A stretch of 34,903 nucleotides of DNA from Thiohalobacter sp. (GTDB lineage: Bacteria; Pseudomonadota; Gammaproteobacteria; DSM-19610). Made by a program: the position numbers and the translations under genes. Position 1 is the stretch's first letter; every line of letters starts with the position of its first letter. Under the pieces are notes generated by a model. That model saw only the letters and a list, made by a program, of their open reading frames with translations, was not told the origin of the DNA and searched no databases. The stretch spans positions 1 through 34,903 of the forward strand of contig JALSRZ010000165.1 of NCBI GenBank assembly GCA_026984515.1, given 5' to 3'. Of the stretch, positions 1 to 16,483 are shown piece by piece.

Positions 1-405
1 GCGGGCACGATCGTGGCGATCAACCCTGGTATCGACCCCGGTACCCGCAGTGTACGCCTGCGTGCGAAGCTGGATAACCCTGAACACCGACTGCGTCCCG
101 GTATGTTTGCCGAGGTGCGTACCGGGCTGCCGAAGCGTGACGGTGTGCTGACCCTGCCGCGTACGGCGATTACCTATAACCCGTACGGTGAGTCGGTTTT
201 CATCATCCAGGAACAGGATGGCGCGCAGCAGGTACAGCGGCGCCGGGTGAAAACCGGTGCCGTGCGTAACGGCCGCATCGAAATCGTGGAGGGCCTGCAG
301 GCAGGTGATACGGTAGTGGCCGCCGGCCAGGTAAAACTGCGTAACGGGCAGAAGGTGGTCATCGATAACCGCGTGGAACTCGACGCCGGAACCATCGGCA
401 AATGA
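1..405 (+). CDS. RND efflux periplasmic adaptor (membrane fusion protein), C-terminal part
   Basis: This is the 3' end of a HlyD/AcrA-type periplasmic adaptor; the reading frame is open at the first base of the window, so the N-terminus lies upstream. The visible 134 residues match the end of the family: a beta-barrel portion with RLRAKLDNPEHRLRPGMFAEV, where 'LRPGMFAEV' is a hallmark, then a membrane-proximal domain reading 'LTLPRTAITY', 'VKTGAVRNGRIEIVEGLQAGD' and 'VVAAGQVKLRNGQKVVID'. Such adaptors bridge the inner-membrane RND pump to an outer-membrane TolC-type channel. The stop TGA at 403-405 overlaps the ATG of the pump gene at 402, so the two are translationally coupled. No outer-membrane channel gene is visible; it would have to be upstream or elsewhere. 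The family assignment is firm; the substrate is unknown. Confidence 0.9.
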   Translation, partial: AGTIVAINPGIDPGTRSVRLRAKLDNPEHRLRPGMFAEVRTGLPKRDGVLTLPRTAITYNPYGESVFIIQEQDGAQQVQRRRVKTGAVRNGRIEIVEGLQAGDTVVAAGQVKLRNGQKVVIDNRVELDAGTIGK

Positions 406-3400
406 AGTTTACCGACCTGTTCGTACACCGCCCGGTACTGGCGAGTGTCATCAGCCTGCTGATCCTGCTGGTCGGCCTGCGCGCGCTGGGCTCGCTGGAG
501 GTTCGCCAGTACCCGGAAACACGCAATACCGTGGTGACCGTCACGACGGTCTACCCGGGCGCCAGCAGCGAACTGGTCAAGGGATTCATCACTACACCGC
601 TGCAACAGGCGATTGCCGAAGCAAATGGCATCGACTACCTTTTTTCGCGCTCCGTGCAGGGCCGCTCCACCATCGAAGCGCACATGGAACTCAACTATGA
701 CCCCGATGCCGCGGTCGCCGAGATCCAGGCCAGGGTAGCCAGTCAGCGCAACCTGTTGCCGGAGCAGTCCGACGACCCGGTGATCGATTCGACCACCGGT
801 GACCGCACGGCGCTTATGTACCTCGCGTTCTACAGCGACAGCATGCAGCCTGCACAGATCACGGATTACCTGCTGCGCGTAGTGCAGCCGCAGTTGCAGG
901 CGGTACCCGGTGTTGCGCGCGCCGAACTGATCGGCAACAGGATTTTCGCCATGCGTATCTGGCTGGACCCGCAGCGCATGGCAGCACTGGGAGTGACAGC
1001 CAACGATGTACGGGAGATGCTGCGCGCCAACAACTACCTTGCCGGGGTGGGGCAGACCAAGGGCGCCTATACCGCGATCAACCTGACAGCGACCACCGAC
1101 CTCGCCAGCGAAGAGGATTTTCGCCGGCTGGTGCTGCGCTCGGCCAACGGCACGCTGGTGCGTTTGTCGGACGTGGCCAGCGTCGAGCTGGGTACAGAGG
1201 ATTATGATTCTACCAACTGGTACAAGGGCAAGCCGGCGATTTTTGTCGGTATGGAGCAGGCGCCGGGCGCAAACCCGCTGACGGTGGCGCAGAAGATTCG
1301 CGATCTCATGCCGGAAATCCGCAAACAGCTGCCCGAAGGGTTGCAGGCGCACATTCCCTATGACGCCAGTGTGTTCATCGAGGATTCCATCGACGAAGTG
1401 TTCCTGACCCTGGTCGAGGCGGTGGCGATCGTGTTGCTGGTGGTCTACCTGTCGCTGGGATCCATGCGCGCAGCGGTGGTGCCGGCCGTGGCGGTGCCCC
1501 TGTCGCTGGTAGGCGCCGCGTTCCTGATGCTGTTGATGGGCTTTTCCATCAATTTACTGACCCTGCTGGCCATGGTGCTGGCCATCGGGCTGGTGGTCGA
1601 CGACGCCATCATCGTGGTCGAGAACGTGCACCGGCACGTGGAGCAGGGTCGGTCACGTTTCGACGCGGCGCTGAGCGGTGCCCGCGAACTGGCCCTGCCC
1701 ATTATCGCCATGACGACCACACTGGTGGCGGTGTATGCACCTATTGGTTTCATGGGCGGGCTGGTGGGTACGCTGTTTACGGAATTTGCCTTTGCGCTGG
1801 CCGGTGCTGTGGTGGTGTCCGGGATCGTGGCGCTCACCCTGTCGCCCATGCTGTCCTCCCGTGTGCTCAAGCCGTATGGACAACAGGGCCGTTTTGAAGC
1901 ATGGGTCGAGCACTGGTTTACCCGCCTGGCGGGCCGTTACCGCGCACTGTTGCACGGCATGCTGGACAGCCTGCCGGTTACCCTGGCGTTTGCAGCGGTG
2001 ATCCTGGTATCGATCGTTTTCATGTTCGTGACCAGCAAGAGTGAACTGGCACCGGTAGAGGACCAGAGTATCCTGTTTTTTCAGGCCACCGGTCCGCAGA
2101 CCGCGACCATCGAGTACAACGAGGCCTATACGCGACAGATTGTGGAGGCCTTCGAGAGCATTCCGGAGTATCACGAAAGTTTTTTTCTGCTGGGCCGTGG
2201 TGAACCGACCACTACCTTTGGCGGTTTCAAGATGCAGCCCCCTTCCTCCCGGGCGCGCTCACAGATGCAGGTGCAGCCTGAACTGCAGGGCAAGCTGAAG
2301 AAAATCGCCGGTTTCCGGATCGCGGTGTTCCCGCGCCCCAGCCTGCCAGGCTCGGGCGGCGGCCTGCCGGTACAGTTCGTGATTACCAGTGAAGGCGGTT
2401 ACCGTGAGCTGGACCGGGTCGCGGACCAGTTGATCGGCCGTGGCATGGCCAGCGGCCGCTTCATGTTCCTGATGAAAGAGATACAGTACAGCCGGCCACG
2501 CACCACCCTGGTGATCGACCGCGACCGGGCCGGTGACCTGGGTATCAGTATGCGCGACATCGGCCGCAACCTGGCGACCCTGCTGGGTGGTAACGATGTC
2601 AATCGCTTCAGCCTGGAAGGGCGCAGTTACAAGGTGATCCCGCAGGTGCTGCGGGACTACCGGCTGCAGCCGGAACTGCTGAAGGACTACTATATTCGCC
2701 CTGGTTCGGGAGAGCTGGTCAACCTGTCGGCAGGGCTGTCCGCGACCGACCTGGTGCGTGACAACGGCGCCGCGGAACTGGTGCCGCTGGATTCCCTTGT
2801 GCAGCTGCAGGACAGCGTCGAGCCCAGCCAGCGCACCCAGTTTCAGCAGCTCAACTCGCTCACCGTCATGGGCGTCATGGCGCCGCGCGTGCCGCTGGGG
2901 GATGCGCTGGGGTTCCTGGCGTCCACCGCACGGGAAATTTTCCCACGCGGTTTCGGCTGGGACTTCGCGGGTGGCTCGCGCCAGTATGCGCAGCAGGGCA
3001 GCGCCTTGCTGATTACCTTTTCCCTGTCCATCCTGGTCATCTACCTGGTACTGGCCGCCCAGTTTGAAAGCTGGCGTGACCCGCTCATCATCCTGGTGTC
3101 GGTGCCCATGTCCATTGCCGGCGCGCTGGCCTTTATCACCACGGGTTTTGCTACCATCAATATCTACACCCAGGTTGGCCTGATCACGCTCATCGGGCTG
3201 ATTGCCAAGAACGGCATCCTGATCGTGGAGTTTGCCAACCAGTTGCAGATCCGGGAAGGGCTGGAGCGGCGTGCCGCCGTGGAAAAAGCCGCTGCGATCC
3301 GTTTGCGGCCGATCCTGATGACCACGGTGTCGATGGTGGTGGCCATGGTGCCGCTGCTGATGGCGAGCGGCCCGGGCGCGGTCAGTCGTTTTCATATCGG

Positions 3401-3527
3401 TTTGACCATTGCCAGCGGGCTGGGCATCGGCACACTGTTTACGCTGTTCGTGGTGCCGGCGGTGTACGTGGTGCTGGCGAGGGAGCACAGTGCGACTGAG
3501 GGTGATCTGTCTGGTGTGGAGGCGTGA
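402..3527 (+). CDS. RND family multidrug efflux permease (AcrB/MexI-like)
   Basis: A full-length 1041-residue resistance-nodulation-division inner-membrane pump, the usual size for HAE1-type drug exporters. It opens with the typical 'MKFTDLFVHRPVLASVIS' first helix, followed by a large periplasmic porter domain. TM4 carries the proton-relay aspartate pair in 'AIGLVVDDAIIVVENVH' (D400, D401, equivalent to AcrB D407/D408), and TM10 carries the relay lysine in 'IGLIAKNGILIVEFANQ' (K936). A second periplasmic half and C-terminal helices complete the pseudo-repeat. The drug/proton antiport mechanism follows from family knowledge. The sequence resembles the MexI/MuxB branch more than AcrB itself, but I cannot fix the substrate. 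It overlaps the adaptor stop by four bases, so the pair forms one operon. No rho-independent terminator is evident just downstream. Confidence 0.95.
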   Translation: MKFTDLFVHRPVLASVISLLILLVGLRALGSLEVRQYPETRNTVVTVTTVYPGASSELVKGFITTPLQQAIAEANGIDYLFSRSVQGRSTIEAHMELNYDPDAAVAEIQARVASQRNLLPEQSDDPVIDSTTGDRTALMYLAFYSDSMQPAQITDYLLRVVQPQLQAVPGVARAELIGNRIFAMRIWLDPQRMAALGVTANDVREMLRANNYLAGVGQTKGAYTAINLTATTDLASEEDFRRLVLRSANGTLVRLSDVASVELGTEDYDSTNWYKGKPAIFVGMEQAPGANPLTVAQKIRDLMPEIRKQLPEGLQAHIPYDASVFIEDSIDEVFLTLVEAVAIVLLVVYLSLGSMRAAVVPAVAVPLSLVGAAFLMLLMGFSINLLTLLAMVLAIGLVVDDAIIVVENVHRHVEQGRSRFDAALSGARELALPIIAMTTTLVAVYAPIGFMGGLVGTLFTEFAFALAGAVVVSGIVALTLSPMLSSRVLKPYGQQGRFEAWVEHWFTRLAGRYRALLHGMLDSLPVTLAFAAVILVSIVFMFVTSKSELAPVEDQSILFFQATGPQTATIEYNEAYTRQIVEAFESIPEYHESFFLLGRGEPTTTFGGFKMQPPSSRARSQMQVQPELQGKLKKIAGFRIAVFPRPSLPGSGGGLPVQFVITSEGGYRELDRVADQLIGRGMASGRFMFLMKEIQYSRPRTTLVIDRDRAGDLGISMRDIGRNLATLLGGNDVNRFSLEGRSYKVIPQVLRDYRLQPELLKDYYIRPGSGELVNLSAGLSATDLVRDNGAAELVPLDSLVQLQDSVEPSQRTQFQQLNSLTVMGVMAPRVPLGDALGFLASTAREIFPRGFGWDFAGGSRQYAQQGSALLITFSLSILVIYLVLAAQFESWRDPLIILVSVPMSIAGALAFITTGFATINIYTQVGLITLIGLIAKNGILIVEFANQLQIREGLERRAAVEKAAAIRLRPILMTTVSMVVAMVPLLMASGPGAVSRFHIGLTIASGLGIGTLFTLFVVPAVYVVLAREHSATEGDLSGVEA

Positions 3528-3817
3528 CAGGGATGCCGGTGAAGGCGTCGTCCTGTTACAATGTAGCTGAACATATTGAGGGAACCCCCGATCGATTCCT
3601 TAATACTGTCATCCCGGCGCAGGCCGGGATCCAGGGAGTTCAGCGACGACACGGATGCTCTGCGTTGCAACCATAGTGAAGCGCTTCCTTTTCGGGCCGC
3701 CTGCGGCGTTGAATGCGCAAGCACTTTTGTCCGGCCTTCGCCGGAGTACGAATTGATCAGGGGTCTTTCAACAAAACAAATGGCTGGTGTCATGGAAAGA
3801 GTAACGGGGGTTCCCGC
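3528..3817. other. Intergenic region before dsbB, with a REP-like palindrome
   Basis: About 290 bases without a convincing gene. It holds a REP-like palindrome at 3608-3635, described separately, and a second short palindrome near 3725-3737 ('CCGGCCTTCGCCGG'). Short open frames cross it but have no ribosome binding site and no recognisable product. A promoter for the dsbB cluster probably lies here; TTGATC at 3754-3759 with an AT-rich segment 17 bases downstream is a weak candidate. Confidence 0.5.
3608..3635. repeat. REP-like extragenic palindrome
   Basis: The core 'ATCCCGGCGCAGGCCGGGAT' is an imperfect palindrome preceded by GTC and followed by CCAGG. This is the form of the dispersed 'GTCATTCCGGC...GCCGGAATCCAG' palindromes common in gammaproteobacterial intergenic regions. 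A sister copy in the opposite orientation lies at 10063-10091. It may form a stem-loop in RNA; function here is unknown. Confidence 0.6.
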
Positions 3818-4333
3818 ATGCTGAACAGACTGGCCCGCATGGGCGGCAGTGCCTGGTACTGGCTGGCTGTGCTGGCAACCGGACTGTCACTGGATGCAGT
3901 GGCGCTCTACTACCAGTATGCACTCGATTACTACCCCTGCGTACTGTGTATCCATGTGCGTATCTGGGTGCTGGGATTTGTTCTGGTTGCTGCGGTGGCC
4001 CTGCTGGTGCGTGGTTCCCGTCTGCTGCTGGTGTTGTCACATGTGTTGACCGTTGCGCTGAGCATCGGCTTGCTGGAACGTGCCTGGATGCTGCTCGGTA
4101 TCGAGCGCGGTACCGTGGAGGGCAGCTGCAGTTTTGATTCCGGCCTGCCGGCCTGGTTTGCGCTGGACCAGTGGTTCCCGCTGCTGTTCAAGGTCTGGGA
4201 AGCCTGCGGGTATACGCCGGAACTGCTGTTCGGGGTCACCATGGCGGAAGCCCTGGTGGCACTGGGTATGGTCGCGCTGCTGATCACCGCAGTGATGACC
4301 GTGGCGTCACTGGCCGGGAAACCCGGCCAATAA
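3818..4333 (+). CDS. dsbB: Disulfide bond formation protein B
   Basis: DsbB is the inner-membrane quinone reductase that reoxidises DsbA. Starting at ATG 3818 (GGGGG at 3806-3810 as ribosome binding site) the protein has 171 residues. Its four functional cysteines fall exactly at the E. coli numbering: C41 and C44 in 'CVLC', C104 in 'GSCSF' and C130 in 'EACGY'. Four hydrophobic segments are visible, at about residues 12-30, 48-64, 69-87 and 140-162. That is the DsbB topology, with both cysteine pairs in periplasmic loops. No dsbA is present in the window, so its partner is elsewhere. The frame stays open upstream to 3713, but that extension lacks a ribosome binding site and crosses a palindromic intergenic region. 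An LCAT-like hydrolase gene follows 15-18 bases downstream and is probably cotranscribed. Confidence 0.92.
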   Translation: MLNRLARMGGSAWYWLAVLATGLSLDAVALYYQYALDYYPCVLCIHVRIWVLGFVLVAAVALLVRGSRLLLVLSHVLTVALSIGLLERAWMLLGIERGTVEGSCSFDSGLPAWFALDQWFPLLFKVWEACGYTPELLFGVTMAEALVALGMVALLITAVMTVASLAGKPGQ

Positions 4334-12568: not shown

Positions 12569-14476
12569 ATGTTAAATTTCAGTGATCTTGCCTTGCGGCG
12601 CGGTACCCGCTTGCTGTTCGAGCACGCCAGCCTGCAGATCCATCCCGGGCAGAAAGTCGGGATTACGGGTGCCAACGGTTGCGGCAAATCGAGCCTGTTT
12701 GCGCTGCTGCTCGACGAGCTGCATGCGGATTCGGGGGACCTGCGGCGCCCGGCGGACTGGGTCATCGCGCACGTCGCACAGGAAACCGCTGCGGACGACC
12801 AGGCCGCGATCGACTACGTGCTGGACGGGGATGCCGAGCTGCGCGCGGTCCAGGCCCGGCTGGCACAGGCGGAGCAGGATAACCAGGGTGCACGCCTGGC
12901 GGTGCTGCACGAGCAGCTGGAAGGCATCGGCGCCTATACGGCACACAGCCGAGCCGCGCAGCTGCTGCACGGCCTGGGGTTCAGCAGTGCCGACGAAACC
13001 CGGCCGGTGCGTGAATTTTCCGGCGGCTGGCGCATGCGCCTCAGCCTGGGTCGGGCACTGATGTGTCGTTCCGACCTGTTGTTGCTGGACGAACCCACCA
13101 ATCACCTGGACCTGGACGCGGTCATCTGGCTGGAAGGGTGGATGCGCAGCTACCGTGGCACCTTGCTGCTGATATCACACGACCGCGACTTCCTGGATAA
13201 CGTCTGCGGCCACATCCTGCACATGGAGCAGCAGCGCATCACCCTGTACAGCGGTAACTATTCCGCCTTCGAACGGGTGCGCGCCGAGCGCCTTGCCGCC
13301 CGGCAGGCTGAATACCGCAAACAGCAGCGGGAGGTCGCCCATATCCGTTCCTATGTCGAGCGCTTTCGCGCCAAGGCGACAAAGGCGCGCCAGGCGCAGA
13401 GTCGCCTGAAGGCCTTGCAGCGTATGGAGCAGATCGCCCCGGCGCACGTGGATTCACCGTTTCATTTCAGTTTTCGGGCGGCCGAAAAAATGCCGGCCCC
13501 GTTGCTGAAGCTGAATGAGGTTGCGGCGGGCTATGCCAGCGAACGTATCTTCCAGCAGGTGAACCTGGTGCTGGCACCCGGTGATCGCATCGGTCTGCTG
13601 GGTCCCAATGGCGCGGGCAAGTCCACACTCATCAAACTGCTGGCAGGCGCACTGCCGGCGCAGCAGGGCGAGTACGTTGCCGCAAAAGAGCTGAAAACCG
13701 GGTATTTCGCCCAGCACCAGCTGGAGCAACTGCAGGCCGGGCATTCAGCGCTGGAACACCTGCAGCAGCTGGACCCGCAGGCGCGTGAACAGTCGCTGCG
13801 CGATTACCTCGGCGGGTTCGGGTTTTCCAGTGAGCAGGCACAGATGCCGGTGGGGCCCTTTTCAGGTGGTGAGAAAGCCAGGCTGGTGCTGGCGCTGCTG
13901 GTATACCAGCGTCCCAACCTGTTATTGCTGGACGAGCCGACCAATCACCTGGATCTCGACATGCGCCAGGCACTGGCCCTGGCCCTGCAGGAGTATGGCG
14001 GTGCCGTGGTGCTGGTGTCGCACGATCGCCACCTGCTGCGCATCACCTGTGACCGACTGGTGCTGGTGCACGATGGATGTGTGGACGATTTCCCGCTCAG
14101 CCTGGACGAATATCCGCAGTGGCTAAGCGAACAGGGACGCGCTGAAAAGCGTGTGCCGCAGCAGGGCAACCGCCCCGGGGGCGCCGCTACACGGAAGGAA
14201 ACCCGGCGCCTGCAGGCCGAGCAGCGCAAGCAGTTGCAGCCGCTGCGTAAAAAAGTAAGCGAGGCCGAGACCGAGCTGGAGCGTCTGCACGCCCGGCAAC
14301 AGCAGCTGGAGAGCGAACTGGCCAGTCCCGAACTCTACGACGGGGAAAACAGGGAGCGCCTGAAAACGCTGTTGCTGGAGAAGGCGGAACTGGATGGCCG
14401 TTGCGCGCGCGTGGAAGCCGACTGGCTGGAAGCGAGCGAACAACTGGACGTCCTGCGGACGGAGCTGGCGCTGTAG
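12569..14476 (+). CDS. yheS: ABC-F family ATPase YheS
   Basis: ABC-F proteins are soluble twin-ATPase factors that bind the ribosome E site and influence translation. The 635-residue product aligns with E. coli YheS end to end. The first nucleotide-binding domain has Walker A 'GANGCGKSS' (34-42), signature 'FSGGWRMRL' and Walker B 'LLLLDEPTNHLDLDAV'. An inter-domain linker follows with 'YVERFRAKATKARQAQSR'. The second has 'GLLGPNGAGKST', 'FSGGEKARLVLALLVYQRPNLLLLDEPTNHLD' and 'SHDRHLLR'. The C-terminal 100 residues form a charged coiled coil. ATG 12569 is chosen because the protein then starts 'MLNFSDLALRRG' like relatives, although a TTG frame opens 27 bases earlier. Confidence 0.94.
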   Translation: MLNFSDLALRRGTRLLFEHASLQIHPGQKVGITGANGCGKSSLFALLLDELHADSGDLRRPADWVIAHVAQETAADDQAAIDYVLDGDAELRAVQARLAQAEQDNQGARLAVLHEQLEGIGAYTAHSRAAQLLHGLGFSSADETRPVREFSGGWRMRLSLGRALMCRSDLLLLDEPTNHLDLDAVIWLEGWMRSYRGTLLLISHDRDFLDNVCGHILHMEQQRITLYSGNYSAFERVRAERLAARQAEYRKQQREVAHIRSYVERFRAKATKARQAQSRLKALQRMEQIAPAHVDSPFHFSFRAAEKMPAPLLKLNEVAAGYASERIFQQVNLVLAPGDRIGLLGPNGAGKSTLIKLLAGALPAQQGEYVAAKELKTGYFAQHQLEQLQAGHSALEHLQQLDPQAREQSLRDYLGGFGFSSEQAQMPVGPFSGGEKARLVLALLVYQRPNLLLLDEPTNHLDLDMRQALALALQEYGGAVVLVSHDRHLLRITCDRLVLVHDGCVDDFPLSLDEYPQWLSEQGRAEKRVPQQGNRPGGAATRKETRRLQAEQRKQLQPLRKKVSEAETELERLHARQQQLESELASPELYDGENRERLKTLLLEKAELDGRCARVEADWLEASEQLDVLRTELAL

Positions 14477-14540
14477 GCCGGGCCGAGCCGCTTGTACCGC
14501 AAACCGTGGCGGGGTAAGCGCGGACGCTGACCGACCGGAT

Positions 14541-15044
14541 TTACAGGATGTCTTCTATAAACCACGCTGAAAAGGCATGTCGACCGCTGACGCCTGATTT
14601 TCTGTAGATGGCCGAAGCCTGCTGCCGAACCGTTTTTTCCTGTGTGTTCCTGAGCATGGCAATTTCCTTCAGGCTAAGGCCTTTCAACAGTAACCAGCCG
14701 ATCTCCGCCTCGCTGTCCGTTAGCGCCCACTCGGCAAACTGCCGGCTGACTACATTCCCCAGGTTTTTGCGGGCTTCGAGCACATATTTCCGGGGTGGCG
14801 TACGGGGGTTACCGATGCTTTCCAGTTCCTGGTGCAGGGACAGGATTTTCAGACGCTGCTGTCGCAGCCCCCATAGCAGCCAGGCAATCGCGAGCATCGA
14901 TATCGCGACGATCAGGGCTTCCTTGAGCATATGCCCGCGGTCGGCGCCGTGGGCGAGATCGGCCACCAGGTCAAGCCCGTTGGCAGCCGCGACGATGAAA
15001 AAGACAAAAATCAGGACGGTTTCCCGGGTCCGGGCGCTGTACAT
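14541..15044 (-). CDS. Membrane-anchored LuxR-type transcriptional regulator
   Basis: A 167-residue protein with two predicted membrane segments (about residues 9-27, 'TVLIFVFFIVAAANGLDLV', and 42-60, 'EALIVAISMLAIAWLLWGL'), a short linker helix, and a C-terminal LuxR/GerE helix-turn-helix (about 105-167). The HTH is recognisable from 'LTDSEAEIGWLLLKGLSLKEIA' and 'NTQEKTVRQQASAIYRKSGVSGR', the usual LuxR pattern. There is no receiver or autoinducer domain, so signals would be sensed in the membrane or by the short loop between the helices. ATG 15044 has no strong ribosome binding site. It is divergent from the cytochrome b-like gene, and a perfect inverted repeat lies between them; regulation of that neighbour is a reasonable inference. 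Confidence 0.8.
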   Translation of the reverse strand: MYSARTRETVLIFVFFIVAAANGLDLVADLAHGADRGHMLKEALIVAISMLAIAWLLWGLRQQRLKILSLHQELESIGNPRTPPRKYVLEARKNLGNVVSRQFAEWALTDSEAEIGWLLLKGLSLKEIAMLRNTQEKTVRQQASAIYRKSGVSGRHAFSAWFIEDIL

Positions 15045-15091
15045 ATAGTGGTGGCCTGTTAAAACAATGGCTTATGATATCGGGCATTTGT

Positions 15092-15118
15092 CCCATGCGG
15101 TAGCATTTATCGCATGGG
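15092..15118. promoter_or_regulatory. Perfect inverted repeat in the divergent LuxR/cytochrome b intergenic region (candidate operator)
   Basis: Arms CCCATGCG (15092-15099) and CGCATGGG (15111-15118) are perfectly complementary and separated by 11 bases. The arm centres are 19 bases apart, about two helical turns, which suits a dimeric HTH regulator. It lies in the 140-base divergent region, 48 bases upstream of the regulator ATG and 67 bases upstream of the cytochrome ATG. That it is the operator of the adjacent LuxR-type protein is inference. Confidence 0.45.
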
Positions 15119-15184
15119 TCCGATGATTCCTGACCAATAATACCGGATAGTAGCCGCAACACTGCAATCAACGAGGACGACAGG

Positions 15185-15841
15185 ATGACTCAGGAAATTC
15201 GGGTTTGGGATCCACTGGTCAGGATTTTTCACTGGAGCCTGGTGCTGGCCTTCACCATCGGCTACCTGACCGGGGAAGAAGAAAGCAACTGGCACATCTA
15301 CTCCGGGTATGCGGTGCTCGGACTCATCAGTTTCCGGGTGCTCTGGGGCTTCATCGGTACGCGTCACGCGCGTTTCAGTGATTTCATGGTGTCGCCGGGC
15401 ACAGCTGTGCAGTACCTGAAAGAGCTGCGCGCACAACATCCGCAACGGTATATCGGCCATAACCCGGCGGGCGGCTGGATGATTATGGCCCTGCTGGCGA
15501 CGCTTTTCGTGGTCAGCATCAGCGGACTCAAGGTATACGCCATCGAGGAAGGACTGGGTCCACTGGCCGGTGCGCCCTCGACCCTGGCAGTGATCAGTGT
15601 GGCCCGCGCGGATGATGACGATGACAGTGCGGACGAGCCATCAGTGAGCGGGCACAGTGGGGAATCGGCAGGGGAGGAGTTCTGGGAGGAAATTCACGAA
15701 GCCTCGGCAAACTTCATGCTGTTGCTGATTTTCCTGCACGTTGCCGGGGTCATCGTTTCCGGGCGACTGCACCACGAGAACCTGATCAGGGCCATGTTTA
15801 CAGGAAAGAAAAGCGCCGGGAGTGCTGCGCCCGGGGAATGA
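15185..15841 (+). CDS. Cytochrome b561 / b-type dihaem membrane protein
   Basis: A 218-residue protein of the prokaryotic cytochrome b561/Ni-Fe-hydrogenase cytochrome b fold: four membrane segments carrying histidine haem ligands. It begins with 'IRVWDPLVRIFHWSLV' (H16), then 'NWHIYSGY' (H37), and the last helix has 'FLHVAGVIVSGRLHH' (H185); H171 lies at the helix entry. Such proteins pass electrons between quinol and soluble or periplasmic cytochromes; the partner is not in the window. Between helices 3 and 4 is an unusual acidic insertion, 'RADDDDDSADEPSVSGHSG' (about residues 139-158), possibly a metal- or cytochrome-c-binding loop. ATG 15185 has GAGG about 8 bases upstream. A MITE-like element begins five bases after its stop. 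Confidence 0.85.
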   Translation: MTQEIRVWDPLVRIFHWSLVLAFTIGYLTGEEESNWHIYSGYAVLGLISFRVLWGFIGTRHARFSDFMVSPGTAVQYLKELRAQHPQRYIGHNPAGGWMIMALLATLFVVSISGLKVYAIEEGLGPLAGAPSTLAVISVARADDDDDSADEPSVSGHSGESAGEEFWEEIHEASANFMLLLIFLHVAGVIVSGRLHHENLIRAMFTGKKSAGSAAPGE

Positions 15842-15845
15842 TGTC

Positions 15846-16027
15846 TAGCCCGCATTTCTCACCGACTTCCTGCTGCGGCGGCGTCATGCCGCGCGCTAAG
15901 CGGCGTTCACTCGGTCGGGCTGCTCGACATCGTGTCGACTATGCCTGCGCGGCCCTCAGTCGCGAACGCCGCTTATCACACGACCTGCCACCGCCTCGCT
16001 ACGGAACCCGGTGAGAAATGCGGGCTA
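15846..16027 (+). mobile_element. 182-bp MITE-like palindromic element, copy 2 (full length)
   Basis: A complete copy with perfect 19-bp terminal inverted repeats (TAGCCCGCATTTCTCACCG). Internal inverted arms 'TAAGCGGCGTTC' and its near-complement flank a central hairpin TCGACA-TCG-TGTCGA, so most of the element could fold into one long imperfect hairpin. It fills the convergent space between the cytochrome b gene, whose stop ends at 15841, and the SlyB-like lipoprotein gene. The last three bases (CTA on this strand) are the TAG stop codon of the lipoprotein gene. Same length as copy 1, opposite orientation. Confidence 0.82.
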
Positions 16028-16483
16028 GTGCGCAACGCGGGCATTTTGCCCGCTGCGGATCAGGCGTACGCGCTCACCGACGGTAAAGCGTTCATTGGGG
16101 GACAGGGCCTGTACGATCGCCACGCTCCGGCCGTTGTCCAGCCGGACGGTGATTTCCACACCGCTGGTCCGGGTTACACCCTCTTCGATAGCCGCGCCTG
16201 CCAGCCCACCGGCTACCGCGCCAATGACCGCCATTACGCTGCTGGTGGTGTCGTGACCGATGCTGCTGCCGGCAAGGCCGCCGATCAGCGCCCCCGCGCC
16301 TTTGCCTACCGGTGTTTTGGTGCCTTCAATATTGACCGGCCGCAGTTGTTCGATTACGCCGTATTCGACCTGCTGAACCGAGCGTGCCTCGGAGCGGCTG
16401 TAGGTGTCGCCGGACAGGCTGGATGCACAACCGGCAAGACCCGTTGCGACCGCCAGCATCAACAGAAAGAAACTGAATTTCAT
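16025..16483 (-). CDS. SlyB-like outer-membrane lipoprotein (glycine zipper 2TM domain)
   Basis: A 152-residue lipoprotein. A signal peptide 'MKFSFFLLMLAVATGLAGC' ends in the lipobox LAGC, so the mature protein begins at C19 and is lipidated. 'DTYSRSEARSVQQVEYG' and 'VNIEGTK' match SlyB/PcpY. The central glycine zipper region ('GALIGGLAGSSIGHD', 'IGAVAGGLAGAAIEE') forms the 2TM domain, and the end 'GVEITVRLDNGRSVAIVQ' plus 'FTVGERVRLI' is the usual SlyB C-terminal domain. SlyB supports outer-membrane integrity in E. coli. ATG 16483 has GAGG 8 bases upstream; a longer frame to 16558 is rejected. Its TAG stop coincides with the terminal TAG of the MITE-like element, so the original C-terminus may have been altered, although the length is close to E. 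coli SlyB (155). Confidence 0.88.
   Translation of the reverse strand: MKFSFFLLMLAVATGLAGCASSLSGDTYSRSEARSVQQVEYGVIEQLRPVNIEGTKTPVGKGAGALIGGLAGSSIGHDTTSSVMAVIGAVAGGLAGAAIEEGVTRTSGVEITVRLDNGRSVAIVQALSPNERFTVGERVRLIRSGQNARVAH

Follow-up and report, generated by a model that had tools for sequence, protein, structure and literature searches.

A candidate bipartite operator between the gene of a small membrane LuxR-type regulator and divergent cytochrome b or heavy-metal efflux genes

Membrane one-component regulators and LuxR-type helix-turn-helix (HTH) domains are both known kinds of regulatory protein. In the ToxR/CadC type, a sensor and a DNA-binding part are held within one membrane protein, which consists of an N-terminal winged helix, one transmembrane segment (TM), and a large periplasmic domain. 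The regulator described here shares this one-protein layout, but it has two TMs, no periplasmic domain, and a C-terminal LuxR-type HTH. It is like the NarL/FixJ/GerE regulators (NarL, VraR, LiaR, and DosR) in the HTH fold, the profile matches, and the dyad-type site, and differs from them in the input part, which is a membrane hairpin. The Czc/Cus heavy-metal RND operons are controlled by two-component or anti-sigma systems (CzcRS, CusRS, and CnrYXH); operons of the same type are the putative targets in relatives of the present locus, where a one-component membrane LuxR-type protein adjoins the operon instead. The cyanobacterial PedR is also a small LuxR-type one-component regulator, to which the present protein gives a very weak NCBIfam match (E 0.077). 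In the part of the PedR literature available, PedR is a redox regulator that senses through Cys80 and is discussed as cytosolic, whereas the present protein is membrane-bound and has no conserved Cys. As for the gene context, the available portion of a report on the SHP/DHC/CytB cluster of Allochromatium vinosum describes a di-haem cytochrome b near CzcD/CzcABC genes, as in the relatives here; that cluster differs in also having genes for diheme cytochromes c, for SHP, and for a sensor kinase and response regulator (PMC2909971). Searches of an open-access library turned up no description of a hairpin of the present type, of its operator, or of its connection with cytochrome b and czc operons.

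The locus lies in a contig of Thiohalobacter sp., whose whole analyzed stretch of 34,903 nucleotides is referred to as the window hereafter. A 140-bp gap separates the regulator gene (14541-15044, minus strand, 167 aa) from the cytochrome b gene (15185-15841, plus strand, 218 aa), and the latter is preceded by a likely Shine-Dalgarno sequence, GAGGA, at 15173-15177 on the plus strand. Protein and family searches found one copy each of the regulator and the cytochrome b in the own genome. Four CusA/CzcA genes above the cut-off also occur there, all on other contigs; within the window, a 1041-aa open reading frame at 402-3527 shows partial RND-type matches, with 214 bits to TIGR00914, below the cut-off. 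Directly after the cytochrome b gene lies a 189-bp element (15842-16030) with 26-bp terminal inverted repeats (92%). This element was found at 97-100% identity in at least 40 places in the own genome, that place included (40 of 149 candidates were scored), and resembles a miniature palindromic (MITE-like) element that has been amplified recently.

The first-pass annotation, made from the window alone, had described the regulator as having two membrane helices and no known sensor domain, and both statements agree with the present results. The hydropathy profile contains two hydrophobic segments, and Pfam finds no receiver, PAS, or autoinducer domain; the GerE match (PF00196, 19.8 bits) lies under the curated cut-off of 23.5. 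In the AlphaFold2 model (pLDDT 86.5, pTM 0.53), helices at residues 2-32 and 36-78 form the predicted TM hairpin, a linker helix spans residues 86-105, and the LuxR/NarL-type HTH occupies residues 110-166. When the model was compared with the PDB by Foldseek, the matches listed (50 of 242) were LuxR/NarL-type HTH proteins such as NarL, VraR, LiaR, and DosR. The top matches align over the HTH, with target TM-scores mostly of 0.7-0.8 and up to about 0.8 for isolated HTH domains; the best E was 0.011 and none was 0.001 or lower. Residues 107-155 gave profile matches to GerE and VraR with E of 1e-6 to 5e-5. The model thus points to a NarL/GerE four-helix HTH fold and, as in a membrane one-component regulator, to membrane helices and a DNA-binding domain in one chain. 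No relative of the membrane hairpin was found among the listed matches of the profile search and Foldseek. The best NCBIfam match of the regulator is NF047608 (LIC13292 family transcriptional regulator), which is nearly full length (residues 12-167, 79.8 bits); five relatives gave 77-87 bits, so that all six proteins scanned are below the curated cut-off of 200, which was reached in none of 200 genomes. For the locus name LIC13292, no paper was found in the open-access literature.

H38 and E42 do not vary among 48 regulator sequences, of which the window's is one; D25 and D29 are conserved in 90% or more, and no Cys occurs among the invariant or nearly invariant columns. The pattern D-x3-D...H-x3-E is present in 67 of 83 loci, and the misses include truncated and unrelated rows. 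Because the HTH should be cytoplasmic and two membrane helices precede it, the hairpin would present these four residues at its tip, on the periplasmic side.

The divergent partner had been called a cytochrome b, and this assignment was confirmed: it matches PF01292 (prokaryotic cytochrome b561) with 104.5 bits against a cut-off of 30.1. H16, H37, H92, H171, and H185 are invariant in 33 sequences, and an acidic and His-containing stretch lies ahead of a conserved EEFWEEIHE. The sole solved relative found by sequence is the hydrogenase-1 cytochrome b (E 1e-6); a superoxide oxidase of the CybB type was also considered for this protein.

We then examined how widely the gene pair occurs. The genome scan gave 52 regulator relatives. 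Within 369 sampled gammaproteobacterial genomes, the regulator was found in 29, the own genome included (E 1e-20 or better), and a cytochrome b of this PF01292 family in 135 (E 1e-30 or better). Its distribution within the own genus is uneven: of the 16 genomes compared besides the own one, 4 gave a match with E of 0.001 or better, and one of these matches is weak. For the tree and the counts, 67 of 83 regulator loci were kept; the other 16 were dropped as truncated, remote, or unrelated (L035, L043, L048, L050, L052, L057, L059, L060, L091, L094, L095, L096, L098, L099, L124, and L127), and the cytochrome b of L030 was labelled by hand. In 45 of the 67 rows, a cytochrome b gene is divergent from the regulator gene: alone in 40, and together with a czc operon in 5. 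A divergent czc operon without cytochrome b occurs in 10 rows, a codirectional cytochrome b upstream in 5, and none of these partners within the distances used in 7. Thus, the pair is syntenic in many gammaproteobacterial loci, as the proposal of a shared regulatory region demands.

The composition of the divergent operons is informative as to the metal link. In Methylophaga L033 and L051, and in L041, it consists of cytochrome b, CzcB, CzcA, and DUF3240; in L034, L039, and L047 (Pseudohalioglobus, Halioglobus, and Seongchinamella), of CzcC, CzcB, and CzcA; and in L044, L045, L049, and L053, it starts with CzcB-CzcA. The CzcA of L033 reaches 1042 bits for TIGR00914 (CusA/CzcA) against a cut-off of 701, and it was the only one scanned with this model, the other CzcA proteins being assigned by similarity to it. 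The CzcB of L033 passes the general RND adaptor model (117.1 vs 94.9) but not the CzcB model (125.5 vs 319.3). Two further proteins, the DUF3240 protein of L033 (70.6 bits) and the outer-membrane efflux protein of L034, score above their Pfam cut-offs, and the CzcB-like protein of L034, which has no family match, was named by position and similarity. On a Pseudoalteromonas megaplasmid, the regulator gene is divergent to genes for a hypothetical protein (29% to CzcB), CzcA, and DUF3240. Paracoccus and Thioclava plasmids carry the order PepSY-cytochrome b-regulator, with VIT downstream in Paracoccus; one of them is a 7.5-kb mobilizable Paracoccus plasmid on which PepSY-cytochrome b-LuxR-type regulator-VIT spans 2184-4303 (NZ_CP067138.1, L097). 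VIT1 (238.5 bits) lies downstream in L079, and remote homologues of the regulator (33-34% identity) adjoin VIT-family transporters in two lineages. Regions from 9 of the 13 plasmid records were examined; in 6 of them, no such cytochrome b or metal pump was found beside the homologue, and one of these six is unannotated. Close cytochromes b that lack a neighbouring regulator of this kind were examined at 20 loci: czcA and DUF3240 adjoin two of them (L131 and L132), and a two-component pair is also present in L131. In the window, as in most loci, the cytochrome b is not accompanied by a metal pump; the metal link therefore rests on other branches.

Some further neighbours were recorded. For one cluster of proteins (c4), an identity as a transporter was rejected, since the four members scanned are GGDEF/EAL proteins. 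In L011 a gene for such a protein directly follows the regulator gene, as it does in L023, where the assignment is by clustering only; in L009 it lies one gene further downstream. In L077, L140, and L149, the cytochrome b genes adjoin cytochrome c-like genes (CxxCH, by eye), that of L140 being beside a second cytochrome b; this arrangement is reminiscent of the SHP/DHC clusters.

As for the gap itself, a perfect 8-bp inverted repeat, CCCATGCG-N11-CGCATGGG, had been put forward as its regulatory feature, and it does lie there, at 15092-15118. However, its conservation in relatives keeping the gene pair, on which the proposal had been staked, was not found: among 28 aligned genomes, it is perfect only in the window (8/8 pairs), and the other 27 loci show a mean of 2.8/8 pairs in its register. 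With spacers of 3-20 allowed, perfect 8-bp inverted repeats number 37 in the window, three of them with a spacer of 11; five shuffles of the window gave 10-24. Because the register is not conserved and comparable repeats are common by chance, the 8-bp repeat was rejected as a functional site. It nevertheless overlaps both boxes of a larger conserved element that contains it, whose symmetry axis is 3.5 bp off that of the repeat. It is therefore very improbable that an RNA hairpin, a terminator, or mere chance accounts for this site, even with 37 comparable repeats in the window: the repeat overlaps conserved DNA, and the sole terminator-like site found in 14400-16100 falls outside the gap, for which reason a terminator or RNA hairpin within the gap was also rejected. 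The perfect 8-bp pairing itself, unlike the conserved element, is likely due to chance.

The conserved element is a candidate bipartite operator at 15078-15125, quasi-palindromic about an axis at ~15101.5. Intergenic comparison defined a left box, GGGCATTTGTCC, at 15082-15093 (family consensus GGRCATATGTCC) and a right box, CGCATGGGTCCGATG, at 15111-15125 (family consensus GrCATTTGCCCGATG). Of 38 non-redundant regulator-cytochrome b intergenics, 28 have the two boxes at a start-to-start distance of 29 bp, a spacing to which the search gave one extra point. Five columns do not vary across these 28 intergenics. Each box is a dyad, and both together form the quasi-palindrome: on the conserved axis, a mean of 7.0 of the ten outer positions are paired, vs the 2.8/8 in the register of the 8-bp repeat over 27 loci.

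A weight matrix was built from the 28 intergenics with the 29-bp spacing, and 16 bits was set as the threshold of presence. Within the window, only the element at 15078-15125 scores 5 bits or more, with 39.7 bits (33.1 bits leave-one-out), and the top score in 537 kb of shuffled sequence was 11.6 bits. Since the motif is nearly self-complementary, the strand of a match is uninformative. In the own genome (3.37 Mb), the full operator occurs once, allowing up to 3 mismatches, and in 60 loci scanned, every match of at least 16 bits sits upstream of the regulator gene. These results bear on the possibility that a different transcription factor uses the bipartite site and the membrane regulator acts elsewhere. 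With a single site in the own genome, there is no regulon from which the binder could be deduced; nevertheless, the constant position of the matches upstream of this regulator, across the swaps of the partner, and the boxes themselves, which resemble the dyads of the NarL/DosR type, make another factor quite unlikely.

Scored leave-one-out, with near relatives kept in the matrix training and rows that are related rather than independent, the operator reaches 16 bits in 38 of 40 rows with the regulator divergent from cytochrome b alone, in 3 of 5 with divergent cytochrome b and czc, and in 8 of 10 with divergent czc only. It does so in none of the 7 rows with neither partner and none of the 5 with a codirectional cytochrome b. 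The czc-only rows are the fairest test of the matrix, because none was used in building it, whereas other rows have near relatives in it. Six loci with a divergent partner fall below 16 bits (L017, L121, L120, L125, L038, and L092). When the left box alone was scored, with the shorter copies L073 and L074 standing in for L120 and L121, it was strong in L017, L120/L073, L121/L074, and L092, where none of 200 shuffles reached the score, and weak in L038 (11/200) and L125/L079 (104/200). A box read by eye in L038 was thus withdrawn, as the left box was not borne out on scoring. A right box was not separately found in the low-scoring loci. L013, L028, and L031, at two separate places on the tree, have neither a divergent cytochrome b or czc nor the operator within clades having the operator, and constitute natural controls. 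Two loci dropped from the counts may also be mentioned: L127 has a 23.7-bit operator match and no recognised partner, whereas in L035 the cytochrome b match is a fragment and the motif is absent.

The position of the boxes provides a clue to the sign of control. In 21 of 36 intergenics, the best -10-like hexamer, searched up to 40 bp beyond the right box, is placed at 19-21 bp; in 500 shuffles, the corresponding count averaged 2.8 and never exceeded 8 of 36. In the window, the putative -10 hexamer of the cytochrome b promoter is GATAGT at 15146-15151 on the plus strand, 20 bp past the right box, a position conserved in the relatives; it is a weak match (4/6), and the automatic best hexamer for the window lies elsewhere (offset 10). 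This geometry would place the right-box dyad at about -42 and the left-box dyad at about -70. Class II activators usually bind around -42. Based on this position, we propose that the bound regulator activates the cytochrome b gene. The left box is 37 bp from the start of the regulator gene, for which reason the regulator probably also controls its own gene. The opposite sign, namely repression of both divergent genes by the regulator until the signal lifts it, could draw on the same left box, which may cover the regulator promoter; however, the activator-typical position of the right box renders it unlikely. The failure to find a sigma-70-type promoter at 14400-16100 has little weight for either sign, since 0.6 were expected by chance from the shuffles.

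With moderate confidence, we regard the protein as a membrane one-component activator, which would sense an envelope signal and act via the operator at 15078-15125 on a metal or envelope-stress module. In this mechanism, the helical hairpin, presumably facing the periplasm, would sense the signal, and the cytoplasmic NarL/GerE-type HTH would bind 15078-15125, probably as one dimer per box; dimers on both boxes would then switch on the divergent promoter and thus the cytochrome b gene. The module operated would be cytochrome b alone in the window, and cytochrome b with czcBA/czcCBA, or the czc operon alone, in relatives. One feature counts against this explanation: the box centres are ~28 bp apart, which is not an integral number of helical turns. 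The most likely signal, judged from residue conservation, would be an excess of a periplasmic divalent metal bound by D25, D29, H38, and E42.

The locus had originally been proposed to be a compact one-component redox switch, with a regulator sensing a membrane or redox state. The compact regulator on the shared region fits the present data, because the operator there is conserved, whereas a specifically redox signal is not supported by them: in sister lineages, heavy-metal efflux operons stand opposite this regulator and its operator, whether or not the cytochrome is there, and the best conserved polar residues of the hairpin are D, D, H, and E, not Cys. A redox or quinone switch was nonetheless weighed as a whole. 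In it, the hairpin would sense the redox or quinone state of the membrane and control an electron-transfer cytochrome, and the metal pumps would have been recruited secondarily, since metal stress disturbs the respiratory chain. Cytochrome b is indeed the commonest divergent partner (45/67 rows), cytochrome c-like genes adjoin it in the three loci described above, and PedR, as far as its available account goes, provides a precedent for a LuxR-type one-component redox regulator. However, that precedent relies on a cysteine in a protein discussed as cytosolic, the invariant or nearly invariant columns here contain none, and the regulator and the operator persist where a metal pump replaces the cytochrome (10 rows, 8 with the motif). 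We therefore consider the redox or quinone switch fairly unlikely. Metal sensing is favoured over it because of the metal-pump neighbours and the ligand-like hairpin, even though D, H, and E residues near the membrane could alternatively serve a proton, quinone, or haem site.

More tentatively, and as a possibility rather than an expectation, the metal-sensing reading may be extended to a class of membrane-embedded metal sensors, absent from the results of the open-access literature searches, in which a minimal two-helix hairpin (D-x3-D, H-x3-E) on a NarL-type HTH activates a haem-b electron-transfer protein or a Czc pump from a conserved two-dimer operator, with the cytochrome as part of metal tolerance. 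The role of the cytochrome in such a class would be, e.g., quinol-driven metal reduction or repair of a metal-damaged envelope redox centre. Earlier hints of a tie between PF01292 cytochromes and metal tolerance are found in the available parts of two reports: the Allochromatium vinosum gene context, where the di-haem cytochrome b is near the CzcD/CzcABC genes (PMC2909971), and the Geobacter cobalt transcriptome, in which czcABC rises and so does cbcB, a further cytochrome of PF01292 (PMC7726332). The defined operator, the sensor hairpin, and the swap of the partner between cytochrome b and a czc pump make the signal testable with one reporter. If the hairpin binds metal, this protein would represent a membrane metal sensor of very small size and would link the PF01292 cytochromes b to metal tolerance.
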